Shown here: one piece after another, positions 2,011 through 9,117 of the stretch
How the letters are laid out: every line of letters starts with the position of its first letter
Position numbering within the stretch: the first letter of the stretch is position 1
Source of the DNA: Pseudomonadota bacterium
GTDB lineage: Bacteria > Pseudomonadota > Gammaproteobacteria > Burkholderiales > Ferrovaceae
Assembly: GCA_028873535.1 (NCBI GenBank)
Contig: JAGWIJ010000001.1
Location: 1-64,000 of the forward strand
DNA length: 64,000 bases
Reading direction: 5' to 3'
Notes under the pieces: generated by a model
What the model saw: only the letters and a program-made list of their open reading frames with translations
What the model was told of the DNA's origin: nothing
The model's database searches: none
Translations under genes and position numbers: made by a program

Positions 2011-3351
2011 ATGTCCGAGTCTATCGACACGCAACCCCTGCGCAAGCCTATCTGGATACTCGGCGTCACTGCCCTGTTGGGTGTGCTGTTCGCGATCTAC
2101 TGTGGCCTGGCACTGGCGCAGGCCAGCGCGGTGTCAGCCGGCTTGGGACTCGCGGCCGCCCTGATCAATCTGGCTTTGCTGGGCGTGCTGGCGACGCTGC
2201 CCGGCCGGCCCCAGGACAGGTCTGCAGCCGCTGCGGAAAGTGACGCAACACTGGCGCACGCGGTCGCGGAGCAGCGCGAAGCGCTTGCCACCATCGCGCA
2301 GATCCTCAAGCTTCCGCCGGGCCGCTTCAATGACTTCATCGACCAGGCGCGCATGCTCGCCGCCGAGAATCGTGACCTGATCGAAGCGCAGCAGCATGGC
2401 GACGCCCAGGTGCAGGCGACACTGTTGCGCAACATGCATGCTGTCCACGACCAGGCACGCAGCCATCAATTCGGCAGGGTCACGGCGGCTGCGTTCCAGG
2501 CCGGGCAGGGCTACGAGCGGCTGGCAGCGGCGCCTCGCGCCGAGGGAGCGCCAGCGCAGTTGCTGACCGAACTTGCGGCGGTGGAGGACGCGCTGGCGCA
2601 CCTGGTAGGCATCAACCAGGAGACCCTGGGCCGTGGCGGCCGCGCCGGCGAGCATTTCACGCCGCGCGGTACCTTTGTGCCGGCGGAGCAACTCGCCGAA
2701 TTGCGCGAACTGGTGACAGTGTCCGGCTCCGGTCTTGCCGCCCGTCTGCATGATCTGGTCGGCGGCCTGGGTCTGATACCACTGGAACGCCTGGTGGGCG
2801 GCGCCGCGGATGCCCTGCCGGCACCGGCGCGCGAGCTGGGCAAGCCGATACCCCAGGTGCGCGTGCAGGACGTGACACCGGGATTCCACAGCGGCTTTGC
2901 CGATGCGTTGAAGCGCGCGCTGCTGCAGATCCTGCGCAACGCCCTTGAGCACGGCATCGAGACGCCGGAGCAGCGCAGCGCTGCCGGCAAGCGCCCGCAA
3001 GGCGTCATCGAGGTCAGCAGCCAGCGCGTCCATGATGGCTACGAAATCAGCATCCGCGACGATGGCCGTGGCCTGCCCATGCACGCCCTGCATCGGCGCG
3101 CGGTCGAAAACGGAGTCCTGGGCCCGGAAGCCTGTTCCCTGGCCGATGAAATCGCCGAGCGAATCTTCCGGCCGGGCATTTCGACCGCCGCGGCGGACCG
3201 CGGTGTCGGACTGGATGTGGTGCGCACCCTGTTGGAGGAGCAAGGCGCGTCCATCCTGGTGCTGCTCGACAAACCTCACGTCGAGCAGGCTTTCGCACCC
3301 TTCCGGCTGATGATCCGGGTTCCGGCGGCCGCCTGCGCACCCGCAGCCTGA
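2011..3351 (+). CDS. Membrane-bound CheA-like histidine-kinase ATPase protein
   Basis: Protein of 446 residues with two N-terminal membrane segments (about 13-35 and 42-63), a soluble middle region and a C-terminal ATPase resembling CheA P3-P4. The linker segment IPLERLVGG, the N box LRNALEHGIE (Asn310), the G1 box IRDDGRGL and the G2-like GVGLDVV are readable. There is no HPT (P1) domain with an H-x-x-K-G-G motif and no CheW-like P5 domain. It therefore cannot act as an ordinary CheA by itself. The start at 2011 (MSESID) is preceded by a weak purine-rich site; the frame is also open to 1942. It is divergent from xylB and isolated from the che genes. It probably serves as a kinase or ATPase partner for a separate HPT or receiver protein; the function is not known. 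Confidence 0.65.
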   Translation: MSESIDTQPLRKPIWILGVTALLGVLFAIYCGLALAQASAVSAGLGLAAALINLALLGVLATLPGRPQDRSAAAAESDATLAHAVAEQREALATIAQILKLPPGRFNDFIDQARMLAAENRDLIEAQQHGDAQVQATLLRNMHAVHDQARSHQFGRVTAAAFQAGQGYERLAAAPRAEGAPAQLLTELAAVEDALAHLVGINQETLGRGGRAGEHFTPRGTFVPAEQLAELRELVTVSGSGLAARLHDLVGGLGLIPLERLVGGAADALPAPARELGKPIPQVRVQDVTPGFHSGFADALKRALLQILRNALEHGIETPEQRSAAGKRPQGVIEVSSQRVHDGYEISIRDDGRGLPMHALHRRAVENGVLGPEACSLADEIAERIFRPGISTAAADRGVGLDVVRTLLEEQGASILVLLDKPHVEQAFAPFRLMIRVPAAACAPAA

Positions 3352-3383
3352 GGCGTGCGCCCGGCGGCTGCCCTCCTGCAGCT

Positions 3384-3668
3384 TCAGGGGCGGCTGGTGG
3401 TTCCGCGCGCGCGCGCCAGCATCAGTGTGCCGACCAGCCAGGCATTGCGCCATTCGACTCCACTCGGCCAGGGCTGGCGCCGCACCACGCGGTTCCACAG
3501 CAGCAGCAGGCCGCCGGCCGTGACAAAGCGCGTGCCGGTCTGCACGAAGGGCGGCACGCTGGGCAGCGCCAGCCGGATCGCATAGTAGGTCGAGCCCCAG
3601 ATGAACCAGGTCGCCAGCAGGCAGGCCAGGATCACGGCGGGACGGGTGCTGCCGGGCGCGGGCTTCAA
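3384..3668 (-). pseudogene. EamA/DMT-family transporter, truncated remnant
   Basis: The 94-residue frame starts like an EamA-family drug/metabolite exporter. It has a first membrane segment with ATWFIWGSTYYAIRLAL, then VPPFVQTGTRF and a second hydrophobic segment AGGLLLLW. Intact members have about ten membrane helices and near 300 residues. Here the similarity stops after LVGTLML, and a short unrelated tail runs to a stop 32 bases from the convergent CheA-like gene. The rest of the gene appears to have been deleted at that junction. No downstream fragment is seen on either strand. It is most likely non-functional. Confidence 0.7.
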
Positions 3669-3793
3669 GGTTGAGCGGGCGAATGAGAAGCAGACATGTC
3701 CAGCATTTTGCCCTGGATCAAGCCGATGTGCTGCGCTGCGGGTTACAGTGGCAATGAGCCGATCGGAGTCATCGGCAAGTGGAGGAATGTCAC

Positions 3794-4720
3794 GTGTTAT
3801 CCGCCTATGTCACGCATCCGGACTGCAGCCGTCACGAAATGGGTCGCGATCATCCCGAAAGCCCCGAGCGCCTTGGCGCCATCAATGACATGCTGCTGGT
3901 CAAGGGCCTGCTCGACTACATGATCCCTTACGATGCACCGCTGGCGACCGAGCAGGAGCTCGGTCGCGCACACACCCACCTGTACATCCGCGAGGTGCTG
4001 GCAATGGCCCCGAAGGAGGGTTATCTGCAGGTGGACCCGGATACGCGCATGAATCCCTGGACCGTGCCTGCCGCGCTGCGCGCGGCCGGTGCCGCGATCA
4101 AGGCCACCGACCTGGTGCTGGGCGGCAAGGTCAGTTCGGCCTTCTGCTGCGTCCGGCCGCCCGGCCACCACGCCGAGCGTGCCGCCACCATGGGATTCTG
4201 CTTTTTCAACAACGTCGCCGTCGGCATCCGCCACGCGCTGGACGTCTACAATCTGCGGCGCGTGGTGCTGGTCGATTTCGACGTGCACCACGGCAACGGC
4301 AGCGAAGACATCCTGGCCGATGACGACCGGGTGCTGATGTGCTCGATCTTCGAAAAGGGCCTGTACCCGTTCTGCGGCGAGAAGCCACGTGGCCGCAACA
4401 TGGTCAATGTACCCTTGGATCCGCGTTCGGGCAGTGAGGCCTTCCGCAAGGGGGTCACCGAGCACTGGCTGCCCGCCATCGACAGCTTCCAGCCCCAGCT
4501 GATCTACGTGTCCGCCGGCTTCGACGGCCACCGCGAAGACGACATGGGCAATCTGGGACTGGTCGAGGCGGACTACCTGTGGGTCACCCAGCAGCTGATG
4601 GCGCTGGCCAACCGCCATTGCCAGGGACGGGTGATCTCCTGTCTTGAAGGCGGCTACGTGCTGAGCTGTCTGGCACGTAGCGCGACCGCACACGTGCGCG
4701 CATTGATCGGAGCCGACTGA
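3794..4720 (+). CDS. Histone-deacetylase-family protein (AcuC/class II type)
   Basis: Zn-dependent deacetylase of 308 residues, probably acting on acetyl-lysine in proteins or on a small acetylated amine. All catalytic elements are visible: RPPGHHAE with His125/His126, DFDVHHGNG with zinc ligands Asp163 and His165, SAGFDGH with Asp244, and LEGGY with the transition-state Tyr288. The GTG at 3794 is chosen because a GGAGGA site ends 7 bases before it; a GTG at 3779 overlaps that site and is unlikely. The stop is 4 bases before the start of the Pat-type acetyltransferase, so the two are almost certainly co-transcribed. That pairing favours a role as the eraser of lysine acetylation. A polyamine-deacetylase role cannot be excluded. 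Confidence 0.85.
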   Translation: MLSAYVTHPDCSRHEMGRDHPESPERLGAINDMLLVKGLLDYMIPYDAPLATEQELGRAHTHLYIREVLAMAPKEGYLQVDPDTRMNPWTVPAALRAAGAAIKATDLVLGGKVSSAFCCVRPPGHHAERAATMGFCFFNNVAVGIRHALDVYNLRRVVLVDFDVHHGNGSEDILADDDRVLMCSIFEKGLYPFCGEKPRGRNMVNVPLDPRSGSEAFRKGVTEHWLPAIDSFQPQLIYVSAGFDGHREDDMGNLGLVEADYLWVTQQLMALANRHCQGRVISCLEGGYVLSCLARSATAHVRALIGAD

Positions 4721-4724
4721 AGGC

Positions 4725-7418
4725 ATGGAAAAGCACTACCTGAATCCCTTGTTCTGCCCGGAGTCGGTCCTGGTGTTCGCGGGCGACCACGAAAAGCCGG
4801 ATACGCTGACCGGTGCAGCGCGCAGCCTGCACGAATCGCTGCGCGCCCAGCACTTCGAGGGCAGCCTGCAGTTCCTCGACATCAGCACCAGCGGAACGCT
4901 GGCTGATCTGGCGCAGGCGCGCGCGGATCTGGCGATCATCGCCCTGCCGCACAAGGAGATTCCGTCCGCGCTGGAAATCGCGGGACGCATTGCGTGCCGC
5001 GCCGCACTGGTGCTGTCGGGCGGCATGACGGCGGAGCGCACCCAGGATCTGGCAAAGATCGCGCGCCACGAGAACATGCACCTGCTGGGCCCCAACTGCA
5101 TGGGTTTCCAGCGCCCGGCGCTGCGGCTCAATGCCAGCAATCTGGGGCCGCTGGCCAGGCCCGGATCGCTCGCACTGGTCTCGCAGTCGGGCGCGCTGAC
5201 CGCCTCGATGCTGGACTGGGCGAGCAACAACTCGGTCGGCTTTTCCTCGGTGGTGTCGCTCGGGCCCGGTTCGCCGGTGGATATCGCCCAGGTGCTGGAT
5301 TTCCTGGCCAACGATCCGCGCACCGACAGCATCATCGTCTACCTCGAAGGCATCGCCAACGCGCGCCGCTTCATGAGCGCACTGCGCTCCGCCGCCAATG
5401 CCAAGCCAGTGGTGGTGCTCAAGGCCGGCCGCCGGCCGGCCGGCAATCGGGCGGCCCAGACCCACAGCGGCGCGATTGTCGGCAGCGACGACGTCTTCGA
5501 AGCGGCGCTGCGTCGCGCCGGTGCGGTGCGCGTGCGTTCCTTTGTCGAACTGTTCTCGGCCGCGAAGTGCCTGGCTTCGCGCTATCGCCCGGTAGGACGC
5601 CGGCTGGCCATCGTCACCAATGGCGGCGGACCGGGCGTGCTGGCCGCCGACTGGGTCAACGAAATCGGCCTGCAGTTGGGCGTGCTCTCGGCCGAGACGC
5701 GCAGCAAACTGCAGCCGCACCTGCCGGTGCATGCGTCCCTCACCGATCTGATCGACCTGTCCGAGGAAGCGGATGCCGATCACTACCACCTCGCCATCGA
5801 AGCGGCCGCGCACGATCCCGGAGTCGATGGCGTGCTGGCGATCCATTCGCCCAAGGGCCACGTCGACTCGCAGGGCATCGCACGCGCGCTGCTCGACACC
5901 AAGGCGCGCCAGGGCAAGCCGCTGCTCGCGTGCTGGATGGGCGATGCCACCGTGGTCAGTGGCCGGGCGCTGCTCAGCGAAGGCGGCGTGCCGACCTTCC
6001 GCACCCCCGAAGCGGCGGTCGGCGCCTTCGGCAACATCGCGTCCTTCTACCAGAACCAGCGACTGCTGCAGCAAACGCCGCCGCCGCTGTCGACGCTGGC
6101 CAAGCCCGATATCGAGGGCGCACGTCTGGTGATCGAGAGCGTGCTCGCGGAGCGCCGCAAGGTGCTCACCGAAATGGAATCGAAGACGCTGCTGTCCTCC
6201 TTCCATATCCCCGTCACGCGCACCATCGTGGCGCGCAGCGCCAACGAAGCCATGATGATCGCCACCCAGCTGGGCTTTCCGGTGGCGCTCAAGATCGATT
6301 CGCCCGACATCAGCCACAAGTCCGACGTGCAGGGCGTGGCGCTCAACATCATCAGCGGTGCCGGCGTGCGCGACACCTACAACGACCTGATCGAGCGCGT
6401 CACGCATGCGCTGCCCAATGCGCGCATCAACGGCGTTGCCGTGCAGAAGATGGCGCGCTCGCGGCGCGGACGCGAGATCTACATCGGACTCGTCACCGAC
6501 GACCCCTTCGGACCGGTCATCGCCTTCGGCGCTGGCGGCACCATGATCGAACTCATGAACGACCGCGCCATGGAACTGCCGCCGCTCAACCAGTTCCTGG
6601 CGCGCCGCCTGATCGAACGTGCCAGGGTGGCCGAAACCCTGGGCGAATGGCGCGGTGCCACGGCCGCCAATGTGGACGCGCTCGAGCAGATCCTGCTGCG
6701 CGTGTCCGAAATGGTGTGCGAACTGCCGCAGCTGCGCGAGATGGACATCAATCCCCTGATCGTCGACGAGGAGGGCGCTGTCGCGGTCGATGCGCGCATT
6801 GTCATCGATCACGCCGCCACCCCGGCCGCTGGCATGCTGTCCACCTACAACCACCTGGCGATCCTGCCTTACCCGGCACGCTACGAGCAGGCCTGGCCGC
6901 TGCGCGGCGGTGGCGAGTACACGGTGCGCCCGGTGCACCCCGACGATGCCGAGATGCTGCAGGACTTCGTGCAGGGTCTGTCGCCGGAAAGCCGCTATTT
7001 CCGGTTCGTGTCGGCCCTGACCGAACTGCCGGCGTCGATGCTGGCGCGCTTCACGCTGATCGACTACGACCGCGAGATGGCGCTGGTGGCCGTGCAGAAG
7101 CAGCGCGAAACGCGCGCCGACGGCGAGGTGGTCGAACGCAGCCGCATCATCGGCGTGTCGCGCTATGTGACCAACCCGGACCAGACCAGCTGCGAGTTCG
7201 CGCTGGTGGTGGCCGACGAACTCAAGGGCAGGGGACTGGGCTCGCGGCTGATGGAGTCGATCATGGAGGTGGCGCGCGAGCGCGGCCTGGCCGAGATCGA
7301 CGGCCTGGTGCTGAAGAACAATCCCAACATGCTGAAGCTGATGCGCGACCTGGGATTCATGGTCAAGAGCTACGCCGAGGATCCGGATTTCATGCTGGTG
7401 ACGCGCAGTCTGCAGTAG
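4725..7418 (+). CDS. Pat-type protein acetyltransferase (acyl-CoA synthetase-like/GNAT fusion)
   Basis: Protein of 897 residues with the layout of bacterial Pat/YfiQ enzymes. These acetylate lysines of acyl-CoA synthetases and other proteins with acetyl-CoA. In order: a CoA-binding Rossmann domain (about 10-130, with LGPNCMGF), a succinyl-CoA-ligase-like region (about 150-300), an ATP-grasp domain (about 480-700, with ALKIDSPDISHKSDVQGV) and a C-terminal GNAT domain (about 725-890, with DELKGRGLGSRLMESIM as the acetyl-CoA loop). His247 in THSGAIVGSD sits where NDP-forming synthetases have the phosphorylated His, which some Pat enzymes have lost. Residual synthetase activity is therefore conceivable. 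ATG at 4725 starts 4 bases after the deacetylase stop. Confidence 0.85.
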   Translation: MEKHYLNPLFCPESVLVFAGDHEKPDTLTGAARSLHESLRAQHFEGSLQFLDISTSGTLADLAQARADLAIIALPHKEIPSALEIAGRIACRAALVLSGGMTAERTQDLAKIARHENMHLLGPNCMGFQRPALRLNASNLGPLARPGSLALVSQSGALTASMLDWASNNSVGFSSVVSLGPGSPVDIAQVLDFLANDPRTDSIIVYLEGIANARRFMSALRSAANAKPVVVLKAGRRPAGNRAAQTHSGAIVGSDDVFEAALRRAGAVRVRSFVELFSAAKCLASRYRPVGRRLAIVTNGGGPGVLAADWVNEIGLQLGVLSAETRSKLQPHLPVHASLTDLIDLSEEADADHYHLAIEAAAHDPGVDGVLAIHSPKGHVDSQGIARALLDTKARQGKPLLACWMGDATVVSGRALLSEGGVPTFRTPEAAVGAFGNIASFYQNQRLLQQTPPPLSTLAKPDIEGARLVIESVLAERRKVLTEMESKTLLSSFHIPVTRTIVARSANEAMMIATQLGFPVALKIDSPDISHKSDVQGVALNIISGAGVRDTYNDLIERVTHALPNARINGVAVQKMARSRRGREIYIGLVTDDPFGPVIAFGAGGTMIELMNDRAMELPPLNQFLARRLIERARVAETLGEWRGATAANVDALEQILLRVSEMVCELPQLREMDINPLIVDEEGAVAVDARIVIDHAATPAAGMLSTYNHLAILPYPARYEQAWPLRGGGEYTVRPVHPDDAEMLQDFVQGLSPESRYFRFVSALTELPASMLARFTLIDYDREMALVAVQKQRETRADGEVVERSRIIGVSRYVTNPDQTSCEFALVVADELKGRGLGSRLMESIMEVARERGLAEIDGLVLKNNPNMLKLMRDLGFMVKSYAEDPDFMLVTRSLQ

Positions 7419-7566: not shown

Positions 7567-8307
7567 ATGACGGCAGCTGAAGTCCGGGCACGCGCCTTTG
7601 CCATGCCCCTCCACAGTCCGGCGTTCCCGCCCGGCCCCTATCGTTTTGTCGACCGCGAATACCTCATCATCAGCTACCGCACCGACCCCGAACGCCTGCG
7701 TGCGCTGATTCCGGCGCCGCTGGAACTGGTCGAACCGGTGGTCAAGTACGAGTTCATCAACATGCCGGACTCCACCGGTTTCGGCCACTATTGCGAATCC
7801 GGGCAGGTGATCCCGGTGCGCTTCGGCGCGGAGCAGGGCGGTTTCGTGCTCTCGATGTACCTGAACGACCATCCGCCGATTGCCGCCGGCCGCGAGCTGT
7901 GGGGCTTTCCCAAAAAGCTCGGCCAGCCGGAACTGCGCGTGCACATGGATACCCTGATGGGCACGCTGGACTACAGCGACTTCCGCGTCGCCACCGGCAC
8001 CATGGGGTTCAAGCACCAGACCCTCGATGCTGCCAAGGTGCTGGCATCGATGGCCGCACCGAGCTACCTGCTCAAGATCGTGCCGCATGTCGATGGCAGC
8101 CCGCGCATCTGCGAACTGGTGCGCTACTGTCTGAGCGACATCACCATCAAGGGCGCCTGGACCGGCCCAGGTGCGCTCGACCTGCACAGCCACGCGCTGG
8201 CGCCGGTGGCCGACCTGCCGGTGCTGGAAGTGCTGTCTGCCGTGCACATCCTGGCCGATCTCACGCTGCCGCTGGGCACTGTCATCCACGATTATCTGGC
8301 CGCCTGA
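7567..8307 (+). CDS. adc: Acetoacetate decarboxylase family protein
   Basis: Predicted to convert acetoacetate to acetone and CO2 through a lysine Schiff base. The 246 residues show the family core: [11 protein letters not shown] near the N-terminus, then [14 protein letters not shown] holding the candidate Schiff-base lysine (Lys116 or Lys117) with its pKa-perturbing neighbour, as in clostridial ADC. The length matches the family. ATG 7567 has a GGAGA site 6-7 bases upstream; an upstream frame extension to 7540 lacks one. The 3-hydroxybutyrate dehydrogenase starts 27 bases downstream, so the pair forms an operon around acetoacetate. This supports a real decarboxylase rather than one of the distant cyclase or aldolase-dehydratase members of the family. 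Confidence 0.85.
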
Positions 8308-8334
8308 ACGCGGCCCCATCCAAGGAGATTCCCC

Positions 8335-9117
8335 ATGCAACTCAAGGACAAGGTCGCCATCATCACCGGATCGGCCAGCGGCATCGGCAAGGAGATCGCC
8401 ATCGAATACGCGCGCGAAGGCGCCAAGGTCGTGATCGCCGACCTGTCGCTGGAAGCGGCCACCGCGACCGCCGCGGAGATCACGCAAAGCGGTGGTACGG
8501 CCATGGCCGTGGCCATGAACGTCACCGACGAAGCCCAGGTGGATGCCGGTGTCGCCCAGGTGGTGGCGCAATTCGGCGGCGTCGACGTGCTGATCAGCAA
8601 CGCCGGCATCCAGATCATCAGCGCCATCGTCGACTTCAAGTTCGAGGACTGGCGCAAGCTGACCGCCATCCATCTCGACGGCGCCTTCCTGACCACGCGT
8701 GCCTGCATGCGCGCCATGGTGGCCGGCAAGCGCGGCGGCTCGATCATCTACATGGGCTCGGTGCATTCGCACGAGGCCTCGCCGCTGAAGGCGCCGTATG
8801 TCACCGCCAAGCACGGCCTGCTCGGTCTGGCCAAGGTGGTGGCCAAGGAGGGCGCCAAGGACGGCATCCGCGCCAATGTGATCTGCCCGGGGTTCGTGCG
8901 CACGCCGCTGGTCGACAAGCAGATTCCGGAGCAGTCCAAGGCGCTGGGCATCAGCGAGGCCGACGTGATCCGCACCGTCATGCTGAAGGACACCGTCGAC
9001 GGCGAGTTCACCACCGTGCAGGACGTGGCGCAGACGGCCGTGTTCCTGGCGGCCTTCCCGACCAATGCGCTGACCGGACAATCGATCACCGTCAGCCACG
9101 GCTGGCACATGCAGTAG
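8335..9117 (+). CDS. bdhA: 3-hydroxybutyrate dehydrogenase (SDR family)
   Basis: NAD-dependent short-chain dehydrogenase interconverting (R)-3-hydroxybutyrate and acetoacetate, usually in polyhydroxybutyrate turnover. The 260 residues contain the dinucleotide motif TGSASGIG (10-17), NAG near 90, catalytic Ser142, Tyr155 and Lys159 (Y-V-T-A-K), and the [11 protein letters not shown] segment typical of 3-hydroxybutyrate dehydrogenases. An AAGGAG site precedes the ATG. It follows acetoacetate decarboxylase in the same transcription unit. Together they would take hydroxybutyrate to acetoacetate and then acetone. No PHB synthase or depolymerase gene is in the window. Confidence 0.9.

Follow-up and report, generated by a model that had tools for sequence, protein, structure and literature searches.

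The locus raises the question of whether two neighbouring genes, one for an HDAC-family enzyme and one for a Pat-type enzyme, encode the eraser and the writer of the same lysine acetyl marks. Pat enzymes and HDAC-type deacetylases have mostly been studied separately, and the eraser of Pat marks is often assumed to be a sirtuin. The pair was analysed within a window of 64,000 nucleotides (the whole stretch of DNA under study), in comparison with related loci, a sample of genomes of the order and public genomes. Coordinates of the features are given in Table 1.

Table 1. Features of the HDAC and Pat genes, in window positions.
Feature	Position	Strand	Basis or remark
Likely ribosome binding site GGAGG of the HDAC gene	3781..3785	+	8 nt before GTG 3794
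HDAC-family (class II-like) zinc deacetylase, 308 aa	3794..4720	+	PF00850, AF2 model, 5ji5 match
Catalytic dyad His125-His126 (RPPGHH)	4166..4171	+	29-sequence alignment, 308-aa numbering
Zn ligands Asp163 and His165 (DFDVHH)	4280..4288	+	Alignment
Loop FEKGLYP, tandem-clade-specific	4349..4369	+	FQHPFYP in other family members
Zn ligand Asp244 (SAGFD)	4523..4525	+	Alignment
Met251 at inferred gatekeeper position	4544..4546	+	Glu in HDAC10; DDMG by alignment to HDAC6
Catalytic Tyr288 (EGGY)	4655..4657	+	Alignment
Type I Pat: NDP-forming acyl-CoA synthetase-like module and C-terminal GNAT, 897 aa	4725..7418	+	Pfam, PatZ match
Glu208	5346..5348	+	Aligned with ACD1 alpha position 213
His247, swinging-loop phosphohistidine position	5463..5465	+	Nmar_0206 H256; Korarchaeum ACD1 alpha 254 (4xyl_A)
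ATP-grasp subdomain 3 (lid), Pat residues approx. 497-576	6213..6452	+	Missing from ten short relatives
His531, ATP-grasp phospho-acceptor position	6315..6317	+	Nmar_0206 H535
GNAT domain, Pat residues about 715-897	6867..7415	+	Pfam, alignment
Glu824, conserved GNAT glutamate	7194..7196	+	Invariant among the 22 long Pats; present in every Pat of the alignment

Gene arrangement in the window

The HDAC gene was assigned a GTG start that is shared with its homologues in the alignment; an alternative, longer frame opens at an upstream GTG at 3779. The gene ends with TGA at 4718-4720 and the Pat gene starts with ATG at 4725, leaving a gap of exactly 4 bases, as had been read originally. A Shine-Dalgarno-like GAAGG overlaps the HDAC stop codon ahead of Pat. 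Co-transcription of the two genes is plausible here because of the 4-base gap and the GAAGG at the stop; most relatives carry the genes divergently, so the pairing does not require a common operon. In GC and GC3 the pair does not stand out from the window, and an origin as a horizontal island was rejected on these grounds.

Comparison of the tested flanking genes in the window with related loci gave no shared neighbours beyond the pair, and a larger conserved operon was rejected on this ground. None of the related loci has an acs gene beside the pair. An acetoacetate decarboxylase gene (PF06314) and a short-chain dehydrogenase gene, at window positions 7567-9117, follow the pair here and are not found in relatives.

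The deacetylase

The profile of the classical zinc HDAC family (PF00850) matched the window protein over its full length (276.5 bits against a cut-off of 27.9, 298 of 298 positions). His125-His126, Asp163, His165, Asp244 and Tyr288 were invariant across 29 aligned HDACs, which bears out the complete zinc site claimed in the original prediction. An AF2 model was obtained with a pLDDT of 94.5, and the best PDB match was 5ji5 from Burkholderia phymatum (TM 0.97, 54% identity). By sequence and fold together, the protein is nearest to 5ji5, to bacterial HDAHs and to enzymes of the HDAC6 type.

The gatekeeper position was located with a mapping of HDAC6 to HDAC10 positions that we take to be correct. 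Met or Leu occupies it throughout the window HDAC family in the alignment, and both the PEG gatekeeper Glu and the PIS motif were absent from the family. These are the marks of acetylpolyamine deacetylases, the PEG glutamate in the HDAC10 type and the PIS motif in bacterial cluster 4 (PMC11532494). An identity of the window HDAC as a polyamine deacetylase is disfavoured by this residue and by the missing PIS motif, as far as residues can predict a substrate.

A wider form of this alternative is that the HDAC acts on small molecules, whether acetylpolyamines or other amides, and that its neighbourhood with Pat reflects a shared regulation around acetyl-CoA and acetate. Some bacterial enzymes of the HDAC fold are indeed polyamine deacetylases or amide hydrolases (PMC11532494), and the tandem clade described below has loop substitutions of its own: the window HDAC and nine relatives carry a loop of the type FE(K/Q/R)G(L/I)YPF in place of the FQHPFYP seen elsewhere in the family. 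This loop may tune the specificity of the enzyme. We nevertheless regard a small-molecule substrate as unlikely, given the gatekeeper residue and missing motifs, the closest relatives listed above and a recurrent partner that is a protein acetyltransferase, even where that partner is a GNAT alone.

The acetyltransferase

Pfam placed Succ_CoA_lig at residues 146-283 of Pat, ATP-grasp_5 at 473-694 and GNAT at about 730-878. The protein matched E. coli PatZ (PDB 9it0/9isq) with an E-value of 8e-156, and PatZ was also the first-ranked fold match. Domains, sequence match and fold match all identify a PatZ-like type I Pat, in agreement with the Pat-type assignment made earlier. The AlphaFold model was of moderate quality (pLDDT 76, pTM 0.55). 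Pat retains the GNAT glutamate Glu824 and is a putative protein acetyltransferase, with Acs as the predicted target.

The original prediction had pointed to His247 as a sign that the synthetase half might be active. That residue is present, and the argument appears stronger than first put, as the whole relay is kept in the alignment: Glu208, His247, His531 and Asp674, all four invariant in 22 long Pats. The homologous histidines H256 and H535 form a phosphate relay from ATP to the acyl group, in a protein whose subdomain 3 spans residues 503-577 (PMC11494057). The window Pat has both the histidines and the acidic residues that the sequence of an ADP-forming acyl-CoA synthetase (ACD) requires; it scored below the NCBIfam equivalog cut-offs.

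Both relay histidines were present in 32 of 44 aligned Pats and both were absent in 11, which correspond to about two loss events. The remaining Pat keeps a single histidine and comes from an apparently damaged gene. The two residues were therefore kept or lost jointly in 43 of 44 cases; this is the expectation for a working relay, so that the window Pat probably retains synthetase chemistry, unlike E. coli PatZ. Seven sampled Pats of other families, which have no adjacent HDAC, also retain the relay histidines, so their retention is no mark of the pair.

Type I Pat synthetase modules have been described in review as inactive, with the catalytic histidine missing (PMC8556138). The window Pat departs from this statement, with His247 and the other relay residues in place, and the statement fails for most of the Pats aligned here. 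Absence of the catalytic histidine is a description of the type I Pats that have been studied and not a defining trait of the architecture.

The part of Pat that accompanies the deacetylase

Three grades of Pat were found beside the HDAC: long proteins with a complete relay, short proteins without the lid, and a GNAT alone. The short form is represented by ten members of the window family, from ten genomes, which lack ATP-grasp subdomain 3 (the lid and home of His531) as well as both relay histidines; in all ten the GNAT is retained and an HDAC gene still lies next door. Their deletion closely matches subdomain 3 as delimited in PMC11494057. All 11 Pats without the relay histidines, ten of them lidless, retain the glutamate of the GNAT and have an HDAC beside them.

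GNAT-only partners of the HDAC occur in the genus of the window. Contig C94 of the window's own genome carries a stand-alone GNAT resembling that of Pat (3326-3790, reverse strand) and, divergent from it, the start of an HDAC gene (4014-4244, forward strand) that is cut by the contig end. The same divergent layout was seen on contig C123 of genome G001 and contig C73 of genome G002.

The constant part beside the HDAC is thus the GNAT with its glutamate, which links the HDAC to acetylation and not to the synthetase. It is improbable that Pat works mainly as an ADP-forming acyl-CoA synthetase with a secondary GNAT, in a metabolic unit where it re-activates acetate released by the HDAC: the invariant relay residues of the long Pats and the joint fate of the histidine pair would suit such a unit, but the HDAC persists beside His-less Pats and lone GNATs, so the pairing is independent of the synthetase.

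Recurrence of the pair

Across 41 genomes (the window's own and its relatives) HDAC and Pat genes were repeatedly adjacent, mostly in divergent orientation. For a wider survey, 200 genomes were sampled evenly from the order and genes were counted as adjacent when within 280 bp. Both genes were present in 101 of the 200 genomes. They were adjacent in 34 of these 101, 28 pairs being divergent, 5 in the order HDAC-then-Pat and 1 in the order Pat-then-HDAC, and non-adjacent in the other 67. Random gene order predicts about 0.07 adjacent pairs against the 34 observed; the genomes are related, and the nominal p-value is not to be taken literally. An HDAC was found in at least 101 of 109 Pat-bearing genomes of the order versus at most 50 of 91 Pat-less genomes, a comparison that is not corrected for phylogeny. 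In six genomes the two genes were divergent and 5-9 kb apart.

A scan of public genomes with the HDAC alignment returned 80 loci. Tandem HDAC-Pat pairs with gaps of 21-91 bp were found in Hydrogenophaga, Azohydromonas, Rhodoferax, Polaromonas, Glaciimonas and MAGs, and tandem Pat-HDAC pairs in relatives of Gallionella and Methylotenera. Divergent pairs occurred in Gallionella, Ectothiorhodospira, Sedimenticola, Thiodiazotropha and others, and one pair was convergent. The four relative layouts span Beta- and Gammaproteobacteria. HDACs from two MAGs, titled Klebsiella pneumoniae and Acidimicrobiales, grouped with Beta- and Gammaproteobacterial sequences and probably derive from mis-binned contigs. 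Rough clustering of neighbours also suggested further conserved contexts for family members that are not paired with Pat, apparently close to etfB and to cysM-like genes.

In the HDAC tree the window protein falls in a clade of 11 (support 99); nine of the others are in tandem HDAC-Pat order and the tenth ends at a contig edge. The Pat tree is consistent with the HDAC tree. Two genomes of the same genus have Pat with no adjoining HDAC, so that the tandem HDAC was probably either lost in these two or gained in the window genome. Layouts change along the trees, which speaks against the simple descent of one fixed block. The recurrence of the neighbourhood in four layouts speaks strongly for the writer/eraser pair first proposed, and a conserved module is well supported by these genomic comparisons.

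Targets and sirtuins in the genome background

A search of the window's own genome gave no SIR2 match; as the assembly is 93% complete, a sirtuin is only probably absent. Two Acs-type enzymes with PKTRSGK, the site that is modified by Pat enzymes in other bacteria, are encoded in the same genome. The missing SIR2 match and these two potential targets make the HDAC the natural candidate for the eraser. A third, distant HDAC-family gene lies on contig C12 of this genome at 4664-5446; it matches PF00850 with 189 bits, and its product is 29% identical to the window HDAC.

In the order survey, SIR2 matches were found in 10 of 34 genomes with an adjacent pair versus 36 of 75 other Pat genomes (p = 0.09). 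Counting strong matches only gave 6 versus 33 (p = 0.009), with a cut that was chosen afterwards and no correction for phylogeny. For these reasons the pair is not taken as a strict replacement of sirtuins across the order.

Proposed function

We consider it likely that the two genes form a dedicated switch for reversible protein lysine acetylation, in which the GNAT writes and the HDAC erases. The synthetase-like module would bind, and possibly make, acetyl-CoA, upon which the GNAT would acetylate lysines of its targets; the likeliest site is the lysine of PKTRSGK in AMP-forming acetyl- or propionyl-CoA synthetases. The zinc deacetylase would then strip the acetyl mark and restore synthetase activity, a part otherwise played by CobB, a sirtuin apparently missing from the genome. 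We infer that the substrate of the HDAC is protein and that its targets are those of Pat. Weighing against the switch are the two thirds of genomes with both genes in which these lie apart, the two same-genus genomes whose Pat has no HDAC neighbour, and related loci that carry the pair with no acs gene next to it.

A more speculative proposal, which we think improbable, is that the window Pat is a hub: its synthetase would make acetyl-CoA from acetate through the two relay histidines and supply its own GNAT, while the HDAC would return the acetate, closing an acetate-acetyl-CoA-acetyllysine cycle in one locus. Relay-less relatives would on this proposal act as acetyl-CoA sensors.

For the preferred writer/eraser switch, a pair conserved in Burkholderiales and some Gammaproteobacteria names a likely eraser of Pat marks, and an uncharacterised group of HDACs gains a defined partner.

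Comparison with known systems

No description of the HDAC/Pat pair as a unit was found in the open-licence literature searched, and the 2024 survey of bacterial deacylases gives gene context only for acu (PMC11532494). The window HDAC shares the RPPGHH, EGGY and GFC motifs of bacterial HdaH cluster 1 as defined in that survey. At about 308 aa it is shorter than the bacterial cluster 1 enzymes of about 370 aa crystallised in PMC11532494, and its identity to them is about 28-29%.

E. coli and Salmonella PatZ (Pat, YfiQ) has the same type I domain order as the window Pat and provides its best PDB match. PatZ of E. coli lacks the swinging-loop histidine, whereas the relay of the window Pat is complete. 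The eraser in the PatZ system is the sirtuin CobB; in the window an HDAC adjoins Pat, and the genome gave no sirtuin match.

In R. palustris, RpPat and the zinc-dependent deacetylase LdaA act on the same acyl-CoA synthetases (PMC6640162), a combination of Pat and zinc enzyme like that of the window. R. palustris differs in that it also has a sirtuin, SrtN, and a further acetyltransferase, KatA.

The acuABC operon of B. subtilis encodes the acetyltransferase AcuA, the inhibitor AcuB and the HDAC AcuC, with acetyl-CoA synthetase as target (PMC8556138, PMC13039410). As in acuA/acuC, a GNAT writer adjoins a classical zinc eraser in the window. AcuA, however, is a small GNAT and has no NDP-forming synthetase module, unlike the PatZ-type writer of the window, and in Bacillus acuB is a third gene and acsA lies beside the operon, whereas no acuB lies beside the window pair. 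AcuC is class I-like and belongs to cluster 2c, with GGGLHH (XGGLHH) and GGGY ((G/A)GGY) motifs (PMC11532494); the window HDAC has RPPGHH and EGGY instead and does not fall in this cluster. Of the likeness to acuC and patZ that was drawn originally, the PatZ half stands by sequence and fold and the AcuC half does not. The pair does not belong to the acu system and resembles acuA/acuC in its predicted function.
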